Part shown: one piece after another, positions 34,547-41,714 of the stretch | Layout of the letters: the number at the start of each line of letters is the position of its first letter | Numbering within the stretch: position 1 is the first letter of the stretch | Source of the DNA: Bacillus sp. 103mf | GTDB taxonomy: Bacteria; Bacillota; Bacilli; Bacillales; Bacillaceae_G | Assembly (NCBI RefSeq): GCF_900116295.1 | Contig: NZ_FPAF01000001.1 | Coordinates: forward strand, 186,001 to 250,000 | DNA: 64,000 nucleotides | Direction of reading: 5' to 3' | Translations under genes and position numbers: made by a program | Notes under the pieces: generated by a model | Told to the model about the DNA's origin: nothing | Database searches by the model: none | The model's input: the letters and a program-made list of their open reading frames with translations, nothing else

Positions 34547-36349
34547 CTAGACGCTAACTTCTACCTGATTTCCTAACAGCTTACTAAACATACCTTTTTT
34601 TTCTTTTGCCAATTGGATAAAGGCTCCTTTTTGAACGATTTCTCCCTTGTCTAATACAAGCACTTGATCAGCATTACGTATCGTTGATAAACGGTGGGCA
34701 ATAACGATAATAGTCATCTTTCCTTTTAATCTTTCTAGAGCAGTTTGAATTTTCGCTTCATTTTCCGTATCTAACGCACTTGTCGCTTCATCTAGCACTA
34801 GAATCGAAGGTTTTCTTAAAATAGCTCGTGCTAGTACAAGTCGCTGTCGTTCGCCTCCAGAAAGCCTCACTCCGCGATCTCCAATGAATGTATCCAGTCC
34901 TTGCGGAAGTCTTCGTACAAATTCAGCAGCTGCCGAAAATTCCAACGCTTCCCAAATTTGTTCTTCACTTGCATTTGGTTCAATCATCAACAAATTTTCT
35001 CTTATGCTTGCATTGAATAAAAATGGATCCTGCGGAACATAACTAATAGATTTTCTTAATGACAATAAATTATCACTTGTGAGCGGAGTACCATCTATTA
35101 ATATTTGTCCTTTTTCTGGCTGCATGAGTCCCATTAAAATATCAATTAAGGTACTTTTTCCAGCTCCCGAAGGACCGACAATAGCCGTCATGCAGTTGGA
35201 AGGTATCTCGAAATTGATATTTCGAAGAGCATATAAGGATTCCTGCGAGTTGTAGCGGAAATACATATTCCGGCATTCAATTCCTTGTTCTATAGACATC
35301 GGTTTTACATCTTTGTATTGTCGTTCTATATCCTGCAGTTCCGCGGCTTTGTTGCATTCTTCCTGCAATTCGATTAAAGACTTAAAAGCAGGAACACTTG
35401 CAGCAAGTTGTTCCAGGTTAGACTGAATAGTTGTAAATCGCGGCCATAATCTAGAAAAAATAAGGATAATTAATATTAATTGCGCTGGCTGAGCTTGGAA
35501 TAGTTTTACAGATGCAAAAACAAGAAATGCAATTAGAATAGACGATGTAACTTTATAAAAAAGTTGTGAGCTATTTTTCAATTTAATAAATGCCAGTTGC
35601 TCTTGCTCTATCTTTTGGCACCAAGTATGCAACCATGTATATCTAGACTCTTCCAACATATTACTTTTAATATCTTTAACTCCATTAAAATAGTCTGTTA
35701 TACCCCCAAGATAACTTCTGGCTATCTCAGATGTTCGATTTCCTAGCGCTCTTGACTTTTTTATAAAATGTCTAGAAAAATAGGCAAGTACTAAACCAGC
35801 GAATAGTACAAAAATTGTTATCTTTACAGATAACCATAAGGCGATTCCAAACTGTATTAGTGTAAAAATAAGAGCAGTTAACATCTGAAAAAATAAATTT
35901 GTTCCATTTACAACGCGTCCTAATTCATCGGTCATTGCACTGATAAGATCAGACTTCCTCTTTTTCACAAAGAAAGTCCAATTAGCCTGTAATAAAGCAC
36001 GATAAATTTCCAATCTTATATGATTTGTAAAATTTATAAGAATTTTTGTATTGCGAAGGGTAAGATTTTGCTGTAAGAGGGACTGAGCTATTACCAAAAA
36101 GATATAAATGCCTAAAATAAGCAACAAACTTATTGTTTCAGGAATATTGTGCAGAAATTTAAACATCTCTGGAACTGGAGTTGAACCATTATTTACTTTT
36201 ACAACTCCACTGATACTTATCATAGGAATTAATAAAAGAATTCCTATTCCCTCCAAAAGACTGACTAAAGCCATCCCTAATAAATTTATATACAATATTT
36301 TCCCAGAAAAAGAATGTAACTTCTTTGCAAAATATAAGAGATGTTCCAC
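34547..36349 (-). CDS. Lasso peptide ABC exporter (D protein)
   Basis: A 600-residue ABC half-transporter, six membrane segments (about 15-315) and a nucleotide-binding domain with Walker A GPSGAGKST, signature LSGGERQR and Walker B ILVLDEATSALD, so a homodimer with two working sites is expected. There is no N-terminal C39 peptidase, in line with leader removal by the separate B proteins. The start is GTG with GAGGAGG upstream. Last gene of the lasso operon; it presumably exports the mature peptide and gives self-protection. Confidence 0.88.
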   Translation of the reverse strand: MEHLLYFAKKLHSFSGKILYINLLGMALVSLLEGIGILLLIPMISISGVVKVNNGSTPVPEMFKFLHNIPETISLLLILGIYIFLVIAQSLLQQNLTLRNTKILINFTNHIRLEIYRALLQANWTFFVKKRKSDLISAMTDELGRVVNGTNLFFQMLTALIFTLIQFGIALWLSVKITIFVLFAGLVLAYFSRHFIKKSRALGNRTSEIARSYLGGITDYFNGVKDIKSNMLEESRYTWLHTWCQKIEQEQLAFIKLKNSSQLFYKVTSSILIAFLVFASVKLFQAQPAQLILIILIFSRLWPRFTTIQSNLEQLAASVPAFKSLIELQEECNKAAELQDIERQYKDVKPMSIEQGIECRNMYFRYNSQESLYALRNINFEIPSNCMTAIVGPSGAGKSTLIDILMGLMQPEKGQILIDGTPLTSDNLLSLRKSISYVPQDPFLFNASIRENLLMIEPNASEEQIWEALEFSAAAEFVRRLPQGLDTFIGDRGVRLSGGERQRLVLARAILRKPSILVLDEATSALDTENEAKIQTALERLKGKMTIIVIAHRLSTIRNADQVLVLDKGEIVQKGAFIQLAKEKKGMFSKLLGNQVEVSV

Positions 36350-36362
36350 TATTTTGTCCTCC

Positions 36363-37550
36363 TCATGATAATTCGTGCTTTCTTACTCTTCTCCAGATGC
36401 ATAAAATAGGACGTAAAGGAAAGTACAACATATGAAGTTGCTTAGGTAACGGCAATGTTTCAGCATCAATTGGATAGGGATAAAGGCAACTCATAGTATA
36501 TAAAAACTTTTGCTGATAAGACATTAATGAAAATAAGTGACGACTATGGTACATTGCTACATCATCTGGAACTGGATCTGTATGTAAGTTCACCATTCTT
36601 TCCAAATAAAATACTGCTTCCTGCGCTAACGTCTTCGGACGGTTTCCAGATAACAATGGTTCCACTTCTTCAATTAATGGAGTTTTTAGTAACTGCGAAG
36701 TTAAAAACAATGCTTGACCACCTATATGGAAGTAATAATTTTTCTTCAATAACTTAATAGTTTTTTCCCAATCAAGTTGTTGCTTTACAATTTGATTAAT
36801 GTCTACTAACCAACGCAGCCTTGACCAGCCATGACGTGCACCATGAGAAACTAGAAATAAAAATAGATCCTCTCTACCTAAAATGTAAACAGGGGTACTA
36901 GTAAGAGAACTTATTCTCTTTCGATTCCATAGTTCCTCAAAATGTGGTTCCTTTCCTGGACCAGGATTTAATCTCCAATGAATTTCGATCTTAATGTTCT
37001 TCTGAGGATGAACATATGTTACATGATGATGTCTCCATTTCCAGTCGTTTAAAACGCTCTCAATATAATCATCTTTAACATAGCCAAGGTTTAATAAAAG
37101 TTCTTCCGCTCTATCAAGATTATGTAAAGGAATGAGAACATCCAAATCACTCGAGGTACGTAGAGAAATATCACCATAAAGATCATCAGCAAGTACAGGA
37201 CCTTTTAAAACAAGGAGACGAATTTCGTTTTGAGCAAACAATTTACTCACTTGTTCCATTTCTGCACTTAAATAAAGCATTTGAAATGTATTCATCTTAA
37301 AATATTGATGTAAAGTTTGCATGACATGTACAGGAATCAACTTTTCATCCAGCTCTTTCATCTTTGGATAAATGAACGAATAAACACGGTGATGCATTGT
37401 TAATTCGAGAAATTTATCCCAATCAATGTTTGCAAACCAAGCCTTATCGATTTCTTGTAGCTCCGCAGCAGTTTCTCTTTTCATGATTTCAAGCTGCAAT
37501 TTGAGCTCCTTAGCCACACATCTTAAATCAAGCCCACAACTATTATGCAT
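36363..37550 (-). CDS. Nucleotidyltransferase family tailoring enzyme of the lasso operon
   Basis: A 395-residue protein of the nucleotidyltransferase family (PF14907 type). The region LLVLKGPVLADDLYGDISLR and TSSDLDVLIP has the G-x-x-L...DxD pattern that binds metal and nucleotide. Homologues occur in Firmicutes lasso clusters together with an HprK-like kinase, where, as far as I recall, they further modify the phosphate placed on the peptide C terminus. The ATG at 37550 has AAGGAG upstream. It lies 13 bp before the exporter gene. Confidence 0.85.
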   Translation of the reverse strand: MHNSCGLDLRCVAKELKLQLEIMKRETAAELQEIDKAWFANIDWDKFLELTMHHRVYSFIYPKMKELDEKLIPVHVMQTLHQYFKMNTFQMLYLSAEMEQVSKLFAQNEIRLLVLKGPVLADDLYGDISLRTSSDLDVLIPLHNLDRAEELLLNLGYVKDDYIESVLNDWKWRHHHVTYVHPQKNIKIEIHWRLNPGPGKEPHFEELWNRKRISSLTSTPVYILGREDLFLFLVSHGARHGWSRLRWLVDINQIVKQQLDWEKTIKLLKKNYYFHIGGQALFLTSQLLKTPLIEEVEPLLSGNRPKTLAQEAVFYLERMVNLHTDPVPDDVAMYHSRHLFSLMSYQQKFLYTMSCLYPYPIDAETLPLPKQLHMLYFPLRPILCIWRRVRKHELS

Positions 37551-37571
37551 GATATTCTCCTTCAAGATTTT

Positions 37572-38024
37572 TTAACCAATTTTTCTAGCAAATTTACTAA
37601 CTACAGTGAACCTCTTCATTTCTTCTGCTCCAGTAATATAAAAAGGACCGCTACGCAACCATGCATGAGCAATCATATTTCCGTTTTCATCCTTCGCAGT
37701 TCCTAAATATAGTGTACTCTCCATTTGTCGTCTCTCTAGCATTTTCATACCAGCTATTGCCCTTACAAGACACTTACTTTCCCAAAAGGTATGACGGCTC
37801 ATAATATGTATTGCTTCGGAAATATCTCTCAATACGAATTTATTAGACTCATTATAACTTAAAGATGTTTCATTCATAGGAACACCTAGTGTAGGAGCAA
37901 TCTTAGAGAATGGCCTACCTTTAAGAATACGAGCCCATCCCAAATAAATATAAGCCTCTATAAATAAAAACATTGTTTTCATATCTAATGAAAGAAACGT
38001 TCGTATCTTTTTTATTATATTCAT
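37572..38024 (-). CDS. Lasso peptide leader peptidase (B2, transglutaminase-like)
   Basis: A 150-residue protein of the Transglut_core3/B2 family, a cysteine protease that removes the leader of the precursor. The catalytic Cys lies in FWESKCLVRAIAG and the His in MIAHAWLRSGP, with the family's usual spacing of about 35-40 residues. It works together with the RRE protein (B1) encoded just upstream. The start at 38024 (MNIIKKIRTFL) follows a weak GGGAAG site. Confidence 0.88.
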   Translation of the reverse strand: MNIIKKIRTFLSLDMKTMFLFIEAYIYLGWARILKGRPFSKIAPTLGVPMNETSLSYNESNKFVLRDISEAIHIMSRHTFWESKCLVRAIAGMKMLERRQMESTLYLGTAKDENGNMIAHAWLRSGPFYITGAEEMKRFTVVSKFARKIG

Positions 38025-38063
38025 ACACACTTCCCTACTTCTTATCTAGGATAAAATACTAGA

Positions 38064-38369
38064 CTACTCGGCTGCCTCTTCTACGATTTCAATCAAAGCT
38101 TCATCTAACAAGAGCTCTAAAAAAGAAATAACTTGCTTTTCACATGTAGATTGATCTATCTCATACTCTTGCATTAATTCAGTAATCACTTTAGTAACCG
38201 ATATTGGTTTCTCTATAAGCCCCCATATAGTTCCACCTACTTCACCTAAATTGTAGTATTTCCCATTAGAAATACTTAACATCACTTTTTCTCCATCCAT
38301 ATCACTTACTATATTCCCTGGGACTTGTGTAATAAATTGATTTAATAAAATATCCTGTTTTTTCGACAT
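38064..38369 (-). CDS. Lasso peptide RRE protein (B1, PqqD-like)
   Basis: A 101-residue PqqD-fold protein, the precursor-recognition element of split-B lasso systems. Typical features are the N-terminal strand region (FITQVPGNIVSDMDGEKVML), then YYNLGEVGGTIWGLIEKPIS and the helical VITELMQEYEIDQSTCEKQV. It should bind the leader of the 51-residue precursor and deliver it to B2. The ATG at 38369 follows AAGGAGAA and overlaps the kinase gene end. Confidence 0.9.
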   Translation of the reverse strand: MSKKQDILLNQFITQVPGNIVSDMDGEKVMLSISNGKYYNLGEVGGTIWGLIEKPISVTKVITELMQEYEIDQSTCEKQVISFLELLLDEALIEIVEEAAE

Positions 38370-38372
38370 CAC

Positions 38373-39299
38373 TTATTCTCCTTTATTTACAGTGTTTATT
38401 ACTAGGTCAACTAGTTGCGGAGCACTAAATCCAGACAACGGTCGACATAATCGATAAACAGCCAGCTTATTTACAATATTTGTAGAGATGTGAAAGTGCC
38501 AATCCATTAATCCTAAACGTGGAATAATAAAATTACGATAAGTTTGACGGAAAATGGTATGTAAACGTTCAAGTTTTTCAACTTGTTGTATCTCAACTAT
38601 TTCGTTCTCTGTCTTCACTAGTTCAAATACACCCGCAAGTGGTACTGGGGTAGAAAAGTAATGAGAAGAAACTGGGACACTATATTTATTTTCTCTACCA
38701 TATATTGATTTATATTGACTTTTATCCATACCAAAATTATCAAGACTCTCTTGCCACAACTTTTGCTGTGGATAAGATGGTGTGACAAAAGGAACATTCT
38801 CATGAGAAAGAGATACAGCGATTACATCATCACTTAGAAGTTTATATCCTCTCTTTAAAAAAGCTGAAGCCAACGTCGACTTTCCAGCCCCTGACTCACC
38901 TACAAAAGCATATGCTTTCCCATCAATTACTACAGCACTGCCATGCAGAGGAAGTATTTTGTTTTGCATCAATATTACACCCATACACGTTCCAAGAATA
39001 TAGAGACGGACCAAACTATCATCAGCACCATCGAGTGGGCAAACTGTTATCCTTTTTCCCTCTTGAGCGGAAAAAAAACCTACATCAGGAACATAAAACA
39101 TCACTTGATCATCTTTAACAACATGTTTAAATGGTGTATCTACTAATTCAGAGGGAAAACTCGATATATTATCAATTAGAATTTCAATGTCTATTGAAAC
39201 CTCTTGTTCATTTATTTGATGTAATTCCGGCAAAGGAATATCACTTGAAATTTTGAAATCAAAGGCTTTATACATAACCTTTTTTCCAGTTTCTAGCAT
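38373..39299 (-). CDS. HprK-like lasso peptide serine kinase
   Basis: A 308-residue protein resembling HPr kinase. The P-loop GESGAGKSTLASAF follows the AYAFV strand, and KLLSDDVIAVS provides the acidic pair. In Firmicutes lasso clusters such kinases phosphorylate the C-terminal serine of the precursor; the precursor here indeed ends in Ser. Start taken at 39299 (TTGGAGTG upstream); an in-frame start at 39347 lies inside the hairpin between the precursor and this gene and is unlikely. Confidence 0.88.
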   Translation of the reverse strand: MLETGKKVMYKAFDFKISSDIPLPELHQINEQEVSIDIEILIDNISSFPSELVDTPFKHVVKDDQVMFYVPDVGFFSAQEGKRITVCPLDGADDSLVRLYILGTCMGVILMQNKILPLHGSAVVIDGKAYAFVGESGAGKSTLASAFLKRGYKLLSDDVIAVSLSHENVPFVTPSYPQQKLWQESLDNFGMDKSQYKSIYGRENKYSVPVSSHYFSTPVPLAGVFELVKTENEIVEIQQVEKLERLHTIFRQTYRNFIIPRLGLMDWHFHISTNIVNKLAVYRLCRPLSGFSAPQLVDLVINTVNKGE

Positions 39300-39331
39300 T
39301 ATTTTCACTCCAATATATCCATGGTTAAATG

Positions 39332-39370
39332 AAAGACCTTTATACAATAAAAAAGTATAAAGGTCTTTTT
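39332..39370 (-). terminator. Hairpin between precursor and kinase genes (attenuator)
   Basis: AAAGACCTTTATAC, a 9-base loop, GTATAAAGGTCTTT. In the operon direction it is followed by CATTT, a poor T run, so it would end only part of the transcripts. This raises precursor mRNA over downstream enzyme mRNA, a common RiPP arrangement. Confidence 0.65.
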
Positions 39371-39457: not shown

Positions 39458-39613
39458 TCAGCTAGTAAAGCGGTTCCAAGTATTAGGATCTTTTGGATCA
39501 ACAGGGTGACCAGGGTTATATGCTTCATCAGTATATGGACCATAAACTGTTGAAGCCATTGTCATGTTAACATCAAGTACTTCTAATACAGGTTGTTGCC
39601 ATTCCTTTTTCAT
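39458..39613 (-). CDS. Lasso peptide precursor
   Basis: A 51-residue peptide found by translating the gap between cyclase and kinase genes. The leader MKKEWQQPVLEVLDVNMTM carries the pattern W5-x2-P8-x-L10-x3-D14-x3-T18, the same spacing as in Firmicutes class II lasso leaders; Thr18 would be the penultimate leader residue. The predicted core then begins ASTVYGPYTDE and ends PKDPNTWNRFTS, with C-terminal Ser51 as kinase target. The first acidic core residues are positions 10 and 11 (D29, E30) under this cut, or position 9 if the cut falls after Ala20. A strong AAAGGAGGTGAG precedes the ATG. Confidence 0.88.
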   Translation of the reverse strand: MKKEWQQPVLEVLDVNMTMASTVYGPYTDEAYNPGHPVDPKDPNTWNRFTS

Positions 39614-39627
39614 ATTCTCACCTCCTT

Positions 39628-41526
39628 TCAAGTAAATTGTTGAATAAATCGATAAACAATTAAGCTACGCATTAAAATCTTATAATCAGGATCGATTGCA
39701 CGTTCTAAAAGAGGCCCCTCTTGAGCTTTTAATAGCGCTTTCTTTATTGCTTGACCATCTAAAAATTCTAAAGCTTTTTGGTCTGGACTCATTCGATGAA
39801 CCCAATCTGCTCCTTGTACACCTCGAATGTGTTGATTTAATCGTACTTTATCAGGCAAATACTTTTCGGTAGATCTACGAATCAACGCACGATCCAATCC
39901 ATTTTGTACATATTGTTCTTCTGGTACAGATAAACAATAACGAATCACACGTATGTCATTACTTGGATCGCGTTTCCACAATGAGTAGTGCAATGACAAT
40001 TTTGTTGCCACTGTATTACTTGCATTCCAGTGAAACAACTCTTCAAAGTGACTTTTTCTTTGTTCATATATGTTCGCTGCAGAAAACCATCCCGTTTCAT
40101 CAATTCCATATTCCCTAAGTTTATTAAACACATCCATCTTTTTTGCAAAATCCGGATTAATTACCATCGGAAATATATACGGCGTATCTGATGAGAATAG
40201 TCGATCAATAGACGGAAATGCCAACCTCGCAATGAATGGTAACCTCCGCAATCGAGCTCCACCTACATTTTTACTATATTGATGCAATTCTTGGGCTAGG
40301 CGAATCCACTTTAGCCTTTTTAAAAGAAGAGCATAATAATCCAGAGCTGATCCCCATGATATAGATAGATTTCCTCTTCCACCATTTAAAAGGACTCCAA
40401 CGTCTTCCTTGTACCCTTCCTCAAACATTCCTTTCATCCAAAAAGAATTCTCAAAGAATTTATATGGCATCTCCATTATTCCGAGGAAATCCGTTATTTC
40501 AGAAAATGGATCCCTTCCCTTAAAATCTAAATAATTGTCTTCTATACCTCCTACATATCGTACCGTTTCTTTAATAAGCGGTCGCTCATCCGGCATTAGA
40601 TGTTTAGGTGTAAAATCCTCAAAATCATTTGATGGTATGTAGCTAAATGTATGTAATGGTTTGTTTTCTTCACGTAAAACTTTGGCAGCAAAGCTCGCAA
40701 TAGAACCCGAATCCAATCCTCCGCTTAACTGTGCTCCAACTTGTCGGTGAGTTCGTACTCGAGATGTAACAGCCTCTTGAAAAACTTCTTGAAATGCTTC
40801 TACATACTCTTCATTTGACTTTAAGCGAAGCTTTCTTTCTGGAACTAGCGTACAATATCTCGAAAGCGTTACTTTATTCCCAACTACTATAATGCTATGA
40901 GATGGTGGTACTTGTTCTATATTTTTATAAGGCGTTATAGTGGTATCGGCTACATCAACCATTCCACATATAGCCAAATATTCAGCAAGCCACTGTTCAT
41001 TTAATTGCTTTTGAACATAAGGTAAAGACAGCAATGGCTGTATTGTCGTACAAAAAGCAAATTGTTGTTGATTGGAGCAATAATACAGAGTTCGGCTCCC
41101 AGAAAAGTCTCTTGCTCCAAACATTTTTCGATTTCGCTCATCCCAAATCATAAAAGCAAAATCGCCTACCAAATACTTAGGAGCTTCTTCCCCCCACTTT
41201 TGATAGGAAAGCAAAATTAACTGACTATCTGTTATCTTTTTTCTATCAGCATAATCCACTTGTAACCTCTCGAATAACTCCTCACGATTATCGATTATAG
41301 CATCTGCTGTAATCGCCAATTTCCTTTGGTAATCATAAAAAGGCAATTGTTCACCAATAGACTCCGGTGTGATCCATTGTGCGTGACAGCCAAGGAAAAC
41401 GCTTTCTTTGTGCCATATTTGAACATCATCAGCGGGATATTTTTGTAAATCCCTCATTAATCTAATGCCGTATTCAATCGGTATAGACTCGTTGTTAAAA
41501 TGTAAAATTCCAGTTATAGCACTCAT
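39628..41526 (-). CDS. Lasso cyclase (asparagine synthetase-like C protein)
   Basis: A 632-residue protein of the asparagine synthetase B fold that activates the side chain of an Asp or Glu by adenylation and joins it to the core N terminus. The ATP-pyrophosphatase motif is AQLSGGLDSGSIASF. The N-terminal glutaminase-like domain begins MSAITGILHFNN and so lacks the Cys2 nucleophile of true AsnB, as expected for lasso cyclases. Start at 41526 chosen for AGGAGGAAAAA; an in-frame ATG at 41610 has no site. First gene of the operon, with the precursor 14 bp downstream. Confidence 0.92.
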   Translation of the reverse strand: MSAITGILHFNNESIPIEYGIRLMRDLQKYPADDVQIWHKESVFLGCHAQWITPESIGEQLPFYDYQRKLAITADAIIDNREELFERLQVDYADRKKITDSQLILLSYQKWGEEAPKYLVGDFAFMIWDERNRKMFGARDFSGSRTLYYCSNQQQFAFCTTIQPLLSLPYVQKQLNEQWLAEYLAICGMVDVADTTITPYKNIEQVPPSHSIIVVGNKVTLSRYCTLVPERKLRLKSNEEYVEAFQEVFQEAVTSRVRTHRQVGAQLSGGLDSGSIASFAAKVLREENKPLHTFSYIPSNDFEDFTPKHLMPDERPLIKETVRYVGGIEDNYLDFKGRDPFSEITDFLGIMEMPYKFFENSFWMKGMFEEGYKEDVGVLLNGGRGNLSISWGSALDYYALLLKRLKWIRLAQELHQYSKNVGGARLRRLPFIARLAFPSIDRLFSSDTPYIFPMVINPDFAKKMDVFNKLREYGIDETGWFSAANIYEQRKSHFEELFHWNASNTVATKLSLHYSLWKRDPSNDIRVIRYCLSVPEEQYVQNGLDRALIRRSTEKYLPDKVRLNQHIRGVQGADWVHRMSPDQKALEFLDGQAIKKALLKAQEGPLLERAIDPDYKILMRSLIVYRFIQQFT

Positions 41527-41714
41527 TTTTTCCTCCTGTTTTGCAGCAAATAAGTAAAATCCAATCGGATAATGTGAGACGTCTATCAATGAGGTTTTCT
41601 TCATCTCCACCTATTTTCTATGGATTCCTCAGAATCTGAAGGTAAGGATTACTGACACGGGATAAATAATCGCTAATATGTAATTAATCCTCTATATTAT
41701 TATTGCTTATATTC

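Follow-up and report, generated by a model that had tools for sequence, protein, structure and literature searches.

The window considered in this work, i.e., the whole stretch of 64,000 nucleotides of Bacillus sp. 103mf (RefSeq assembly GCF_900116295.1, contig NZ_FPAF01000001.1, forward-strand positions 186,001 to 250,000), harbors a paeninodin-type gene cluster lying on the minus strand, from 41610 to 34547, in the order C-A-K-B1-B2-N-D. The gene C (39628..41610, with a likely start MSAI at 41526) codes for a lasso cyclase similar to asparagine synthetases, scoring 396.8 bits against NF033535, below the cut-off of 525, and 81 bits against PF00733 (cut-off 21); its AlphaFold2 model (mean pLDDT 89.0) predicts a structure whose Foldseek matches are Asn-synthetase-fold enzymes, the best of them being 7ylz. 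The precursor gene A (39458..39613) is followed by an HPr-kinase-like gene K (38373..39347), which stays under the cut-off with both PF07475 (30.9 bits, cut-off 33.3) and HprK_rel_A (34.6 bits, cut-off 200) and which, by likeness to PadeK, is expected to phosphorylate a C-terminal Ser. The remaining genes code, respectively, for a PqqD-like leader-binding protein (B1, 38064..38372; NF033536, 138.4 bits, cut-off 80), a leader peptidase (B2, 37572..38030; NF033537, 105.2 bits, cut-off 33), a nucleotidyltransferase-like protein (N, 36363..37565; PF14907, 194.3 bits, cut-off 31.2) and an ABC exporter (D, 34547..36349; PF00005 and PF00664, above cut-off). Hence, a cyclase, a kinase, a split B1/B2 pair and a transporter are all present, the first two with scores below the curated cut-offs. 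Linear polyphosphorylated peptides (LPPs) are instead recognized by the lack of a cyclase and by a YxxP leader, whereas this cluster has a cyclase, a canonical B2 and a WxxP leader. Beside the cluster, between 43577 and 63943, lie ORFs judged by eye to be of the polysaccharide type (glycosyltransferases, a flippase, acetyltransferases, an aminotransferase, and an epimerase); the co-location of paeninodin clusters with genes of this type has been remarked upon (PMC13381572). As regards the host, LexA shows 82-84% identity in five out of 19 genomes belonging to the family of the Ectobacillus antri genome.

The precursor ORF (39613-39458, minus strand) codes for 51 amino acids plus a stop codon and is preceded by a ribosome-binding site, AGGAGGT (39620..39626), six bases before the ATG. 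It reads MKKEWQQPVLEVLDVNMTM followed by ASTVYGPYTDEAYNPGHPVDPKDPNTWNRFTS, the latter being the core under the canonical cut (A20-S51). The leader, M1-M19 (39557..39613), carries the W5xxP8xL10 motif, which has a role in B1 binding (PMC13381572), and Trp5 lies 13 residues from Thr18, the -2 position of the canonical cut. The sequence matches NF033524, the profile of the paeninodin-family lasso precursors, with 58.3 bits (cut-off 27), and it has the WxxPxL leader, the Thr at -2 and the C-terminal Ser that this family expects. We consider it a real gene because of this match, of its position between the cyclase and the kinase genes, and of the existence of 20 distinct AST...TDEAY cores, the window included, among the 97 precursors described below (best 80 of 212 loci); the same 20 cores led us to discard a chance oddity of a single gene. 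With a cut after Met19, the first acidic residues fall at core positions 10 (D29) and 11 (E30), so that the predicted ring Ala1-Asp10 (A20-D29, ASTVYGPYTD, 39527..39556) would have ten residues. By the sequence tests applied, the precursor thus belongs to the paeninodin family, and one described lasso feature, an acid at core positions 7-9, is missing from it under the canonical cut. The initial annotation had placed Thr18 at the expected penultimate position, the core start at Ala20 and the first acids at positions 10 and 11, all of which the ORF bears out; it had also called the DP-rich tail unusual, while several relatives share VPG..VDPNNP.TW.RFTS, a tail that is ordinary within this group.

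The window cyclase was scanned against one genome per species, and the best 80 of 212 loci were retained. They contain 99 related cyclases, the window counted, 97 of which have a precursor within 450 bases recognized by a fixed-length WxxP...T leader pattern; the leader length is therefore built into the search, and one fixed-length pattern fits both classes described here. The cyclases L044_C2 and L078_C1 are outside the counts, their precursors having failed the distance or leader filters: the second A gene of L044 has acids at core positions 8 and 9, and the A gene of L078 has Asp at 9. In the 97 precursors (best 80 of 212 loci), an acid stands at core position 9 in 59, six of which have a further one at 10 and were assigned to 9 by homology, at position 10 but not 9 in 38, and at neither in none, the 38/97 share being inflated because the set started from the window cyclase and only the best 80 of 212 loci were kept. 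Within this Asp10 class (best 80 of 212 loci), position 10 is Asp in 38 out of 38 sequences and an acid at 9 occurs in 0/38; acids are found at 8 in two, at 7 in four and at 11 in 23, and 32/38 have no acid at all at positions 7-9. Since membership of the class already requires an acid at 10 and none at 9, the informative facts are the acid at 9 or 10 in 97/97 and the absence of any acid at 7-9 in 32/38. By sequence comparison, the Asp10 spacing is a class and not a quirk of one gene; it occurs in Cytobacillus, Neobacillus, Paenibacillus, Alkalihalobacillus, Litchfieldia, Evansella, Ectobacillus and other genera. A comparison of the Thr-Asp distance among homologues had been proposed with the initial annotation, and homologues with the same core type as the window do have Asp at 10; the opposite case envisaged there, in which every close homologue would have Asp at 9, was not encountered.

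In another, evenly drawn sample of 398 Bacilli genomes, 40 matched the precursor family, with 68 sites listed. The Asp10 spacing appears in two of these 40 genomes, i.e., the centre genome of the draw (G001; locus L084) and G351 (locus L023); judging from this draw, and because of the 2/40 figure, it is a minority form. Some of the 68 sites have neither Asp9 nor Asp10. Three loci from the draw (L127, L133, and L134) all have Asp at 9, and in the L127 leader, WQAPKLEVLDVRQQTM, the Trp-Thr gap is one residue longer than usual, with Asp still at core position 9 as counted from its Thr. Peptides with a paeninodin leader and cores like NGGQGIWQYVWDGEFWKLELMVS were observed in nine Bacilli genomes (L139-L145, L147, and L148), and two further ones have NGGEGIWQYVWGGEFW cores (L136 and L137); all lack an acid at core positions 5-11. 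No homologues of the window lasso enzymes were found in the 13 kb retrieved around such peptides at two sites (L153 and L155); at L153, the next gene codes for a CarboxypepD_reg-domain protein. Moreover, Lys-initial cores stand behind the same leader at L130, L132, L135, and L151 (KGWHHGGKPGKEE.., KFFEHPKKEK.., KGFGPPKKDWDD.., and KGWKPPEQEK.., respectively), and the 12 kb surrounding the L132 core (L154) contained no lasso enzyme homologue.

Eighteen tandem C1-A1-C2-A2 clusters were recognized among the best 80 of 212 loci (L003, L008, L013, L017, L018, L020, L022, L023, L024, L026, L032, L037, L041, L044, L050, L054, L071, and L075). In ten of the 18, organized as C1-A1-C2-A2-K-B1-B2-N (best 80 of 212 loci), A1 is an Asp10 precursor and A2 an Asp9 precursor, the two carrying the same kind of leader. 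A search of the ten whole genomes for the B2 family gave a single match in each, as counted in draft assemblies where a copy may be missed; the single B2 lies inside the fetched cluster, both strands considered, in seven of them (L003, L008, L017, L020, L023, L032, and L071), and in L024, its start coincides with a border of the retrieved sequence. The coexistence of nine- and ten-spaced precursors within a single cluster, in genomes where only one leader peptidase gene was matched, offers a clean natural test. In the paeninodin system, PadeB1 and PadeB2 cut the leader without the cyclase (PMC5067487). In the tandem clusters, the second core frequently reads NGPGNANADCFDVS..ASC and contains Asn at position 1 and two Cys residues.

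The distribution of the 9/10 label on the cyclase tree (97 labelled out of 99 rows; best 80 of 212 loci) requires two changes, versus a mean of 30.1 after shuffling, and three on a rebuilt 97-row tree; a tree in which the 38 Asp10 rows are held together as a single clade has a higher likelihood and is not rejected (p-AU 0.649). The label changes counted in successive 160-column blocks of the cyclase, from the N- to the C-terminus, are 23, 14, 5, 6, 2, 2, and 4, and since they fall toward the C-terminus, the spacing signal sits in the synthetase half of the enzyme. The spacing label follows one history in columns 1-240 and another in columns 321-640, as would be seen if the two halves recombined or the N-terminal half were poor in signal. 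The starred branches of a tree built from B2, N, and D of 43 loci force at least seven changes, versus two when the cyclases of these loci are used; by this count, leader peptidase and tailoring genes have switched partners at least seven times. Single-gene trees require 8 changes for K (71 rows), 14 for B1 (70), 8 for N (49), and 8 for D (52), versus two for the cyclase on the same loci each time. The B2 tree labelled by the first precursor requires 11 (71 rows) or 13 changes (70 rows), with the starred branches forcing only one for the Asp10 label; being poorly resolved, this tree was set aside as a proof of discordance and the B2+N+D tree was used instead. As a control for length, 3 to 7 changes were counted with 159 cyclase columns taken at random and 2 to 16 with contiguous blocks, and the N-terminus of the cyclase is discordant to the same degree as B2.

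The window itself is an example of such an arrangement. Among the 43 loci, its cyclase is nearest to that of L001, an Asp10 locus (71.0% identical), with the Asp9 locus L002 at 70.3%; its B2, N, and D are nearest to those of L027 (77.0, 67.6, and 78.9%, respectively), an Asp9 cluster of Paenibacillus whose precursor, with a leader ending in ...EETM and the core ASGNWGAYDEGYNA, has the same TM/AS junction as the window. As far as sequence relatedness goes, the window cluster is therefore a mosaic, because its B2, N, and D (34547-38030) are far closer to the Asp9 cluster L027 than its cyclase is. Cores with an HHES tail have Asp9 where the cyclase falls outside the Asp10 group (L053, L056, and L062), whereas L057, whose cyclase is inside the group, has Asp10, together with acids at positions 5, 6, and 8. 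The history that the spacing shares with the 3' half of the cyclase gene may be plain linkage, because the precursor gene directly follows the cyclase gene, mostly at a few tens of bases.

We also searched for cyclase positions associated with the spacing. Residues 411, 415, and 527 separate most Asp10 from Asp9 enzymes, and His527 is present in 35/38 Asp10 and 3/59 Asp9 cyclases (best 80 of 212 loci). As ring-size determinants, these three residues were rejected: L053, L056, and L062, which have Asp9 and are near in core sequence, carry the window letters at all three, and for this reason no residue is named here as setting the ring size.

The position of the extra residue was evaluated by deleting one ring residue at a time from the Asp10 cores to match their Asp9 relatives and scoring the mean BLOSUM62 value (20 AST cores versus six AS/AA cores). 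For the AST cores, the deletion scores best at core position 9 (10.71) or 7 (9.21) and worst at position 1 (-4.78). For the LTxS group, the best position is 3 (6.59), with positions 2 to 5 within about 1.5 of this value, position 1 at 1.99, and positions 6 to 9 lower; the Asp9 set used for this scoring was chosen by its TF tail, which would be circular for a comparison of the plugs, and the plug count given below was chosen otherwise. Ala1-Ser2 is retained in most of the nearest Asp9 relatives, so that the N-termini match and the extra residue fits inside the ring near the Asp. Core position 2 is Gly in 45/59 Asp9 and in 0/38 Asp10 cores (best 80 of 212 loci), where it is Ser in 21, Asp in 8, Asn in 7, and Ala in 2, a contrast that could hint at a different N-terminus in the Asp10 class. 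Among the matches to the tail pattern [LI]T-x (best 80 of 212 loci), 16/17 of the Asp10 class have Trp or Tyr as x, the seventeenth (L014) ending in YIWS, and 14/17 of the Asp9 class have Phe, the others having Ser, Leu, or the unrelated L068 tail. The tails of the LTFS and LTWS groups are mostly equal in length. The contrast between LTFS (Asp9) and LTWS/LTYS (Asp10) is a weak hint at a bigger plug for a bigger ring, because the Asp9 LG group forms a single clade (support 99) and, hence, represents one evolutionary event.

These data can be read in more than one way. If the leader were cut one residue later, after Ala20 and with Thr at -3, the extra residue would belong to the leader and a Ser1-Asp9 ring would stay within the known 7-9 range. 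The small or polar residues at core position 2 of the Asp10 class suit such a cut, the LTxS group places the extra residue nearly as well at any of positions 2 to 5, and the core itself could dictate the shift. Nevertheless, this reading appears rather unlikely, since a single B2 gene was found in 10/10 genomes with Asp9 and Asp10 precursors in one cluster, the closest relative of the window B2 (77.0%) comes from L027, an Asp9 cluster that shares the TM/AS junction, and the extra residue aligns inside the ring: position 1 is the worst place for it in the AST group and scores below positions 2-5 in the LTxS group. A later cut would also need an N-terminal Asp in 8/38 precursors, while an acid at position 1 occurs in 0/59 Asp9 cores (best 80 of 212 loci). 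Moving the penultimate leader residue to Thr22, which would yield a seven-residue Tyr1-Glu7 ring, accounts for the Thr at core position 3 and the acid at position 11 of the AST...TDEAY cores, and we regard it as highly improbable: an acid at 11 occurs in 23/38 Asp10 cores and Asp10 in all of them (best 80 of 212 loci), L014, which has AST and Asp10, lacks an acid at 11, and in most LD-type cores position 3 is not Thr. The acid at 11 being absent in 15/38 Asp10 cores, Thr22 was rejected in this role.

A different outcome, with the normal cut retained, would be an unthreaded product, either a branched cyclic or a linear phosphorylated peptide. Linear relatives that share tailoring genes do exist (LPPs; PMC13381572), a ten-residue ring would be looser and may fail to hold the tail, and paeninodin-leader peptides exist without an acid at 7-9 and without a window-like lasso enzyme nearby. 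On the other hand, all 97 counted precursors (best 80 of 212 loci) have a cyclase gene ahead of them, and the 62 cyclases that were aligned share an invariant SGGLDS loop; the Trp/Tyr (Asp10) versus Phe (Asp9) plug contrast also speaks, weakly and as one evolutionary event, for a held tail, and we judge an unthreaded product improbable. The initial annotation had left the choice among a later cut, a larger ring, and a product that is not a simple lasso; the comparative data favor the larger ring and disfavor the later cut.

The reading that we consider likely is, therefore, a normal cut after Met19, with Thr at -2, and a natural ten-residue Ala1-Asp10 macrolactam threaded by the tail. This ring-size reading is favored because of the tandem genomes with one B2, the cyclase tree, the mosaic structure of the window cluster, the deletion scores, and the HHES cores. 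According to the proposed scheme, whose order follows that of the paeninodin and pseudomycoidin systems by analogy (PMC8498205, PMC9266682), K would phosphorylate the precursor at its C-terminal Ser, B1 would bind the WxxPxL leader and present the precursor, and B2 would remove the leader after Met19; the cyclase would then activate Asp10, the Ala1 amine closing the ring round the folded tail, N would add a sugar to the phosphate on the C-terminal Ser, and D would export the product. On a wider scale, and with somewhat more reserve, we think it probable that a clade of Bacillales cyclases closes ten-residue rings in nature on three or more core types (AST..RFTS, xx..LD..LTWS, and AAS..HHES), which would derive from nine-residue ancestors by one in-ring insertion, the leader peptidases being shared freely with nine-residue precursors.

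The size of the ring limits which tails can thread and hold. Lasso rings that have been structurally characterized have 7, 8, or 9 residues, as stated in a review of June 2026 (PMC13352647), and no natural ten-residue lasso ring was found in the article passages searched; Asp10 precursors may be listed in supplementary files. A natural ten-residue class, if true, would widen the described 7-9 range, and the nine- and ten-type cyclases would represent a matched set for finding what sets the ring size. Current mining tools apply acid-at-7-9 rules, and tools with this expectation would miss Asp10 precursors or split them wrongly.

Paeninodin has an Ala1-Asp9 ring, and the AGPG..D cores among the precursors read have Asp at 9, whereas the window has it at 10. 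In the other respects, the system of Paenibacillus dendritiformis C454 resembles that of the window, with the same leader type, Thr at -2, cyclase, kinase, split B1/B2, transporter, and C-terminal Ser (PMC5067487, PMC9266682). Pseudomycoidin, from Bacillus pseudomycoides DSM 12442, shares with it a kinase and a nucleotidyltransferase in a lasso cluster of Bacillota (PMC8498205, PMC9266682). PbaA of Paenibacillus alginolyticus DSM 5050 (L005; LDPKNGNHLDHAY..) belongs to the Asp10 class like the window; it was used in leader-binding work of 2026, where the leader is numbered K-18, W-15, P-12, and L-10, which implies a cut after Met19 (PMC13381572). Lastly, the fusilassin ring tolerates 7-10 residues (PMC13352647, PMC8498205), and an analogue with a ten-residue ring is mentioned in a review of 2021 (PMC8498205), i.e., a ten-residue macrolactam formed by lasso enzymes, as proposed here for the window (PMC8498205, PMC13352647). 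In that case, the ring is an altered form of the natural nine-residue ring of Thermobifida fusca, whereas the spacing found in the window is natural and conserved.
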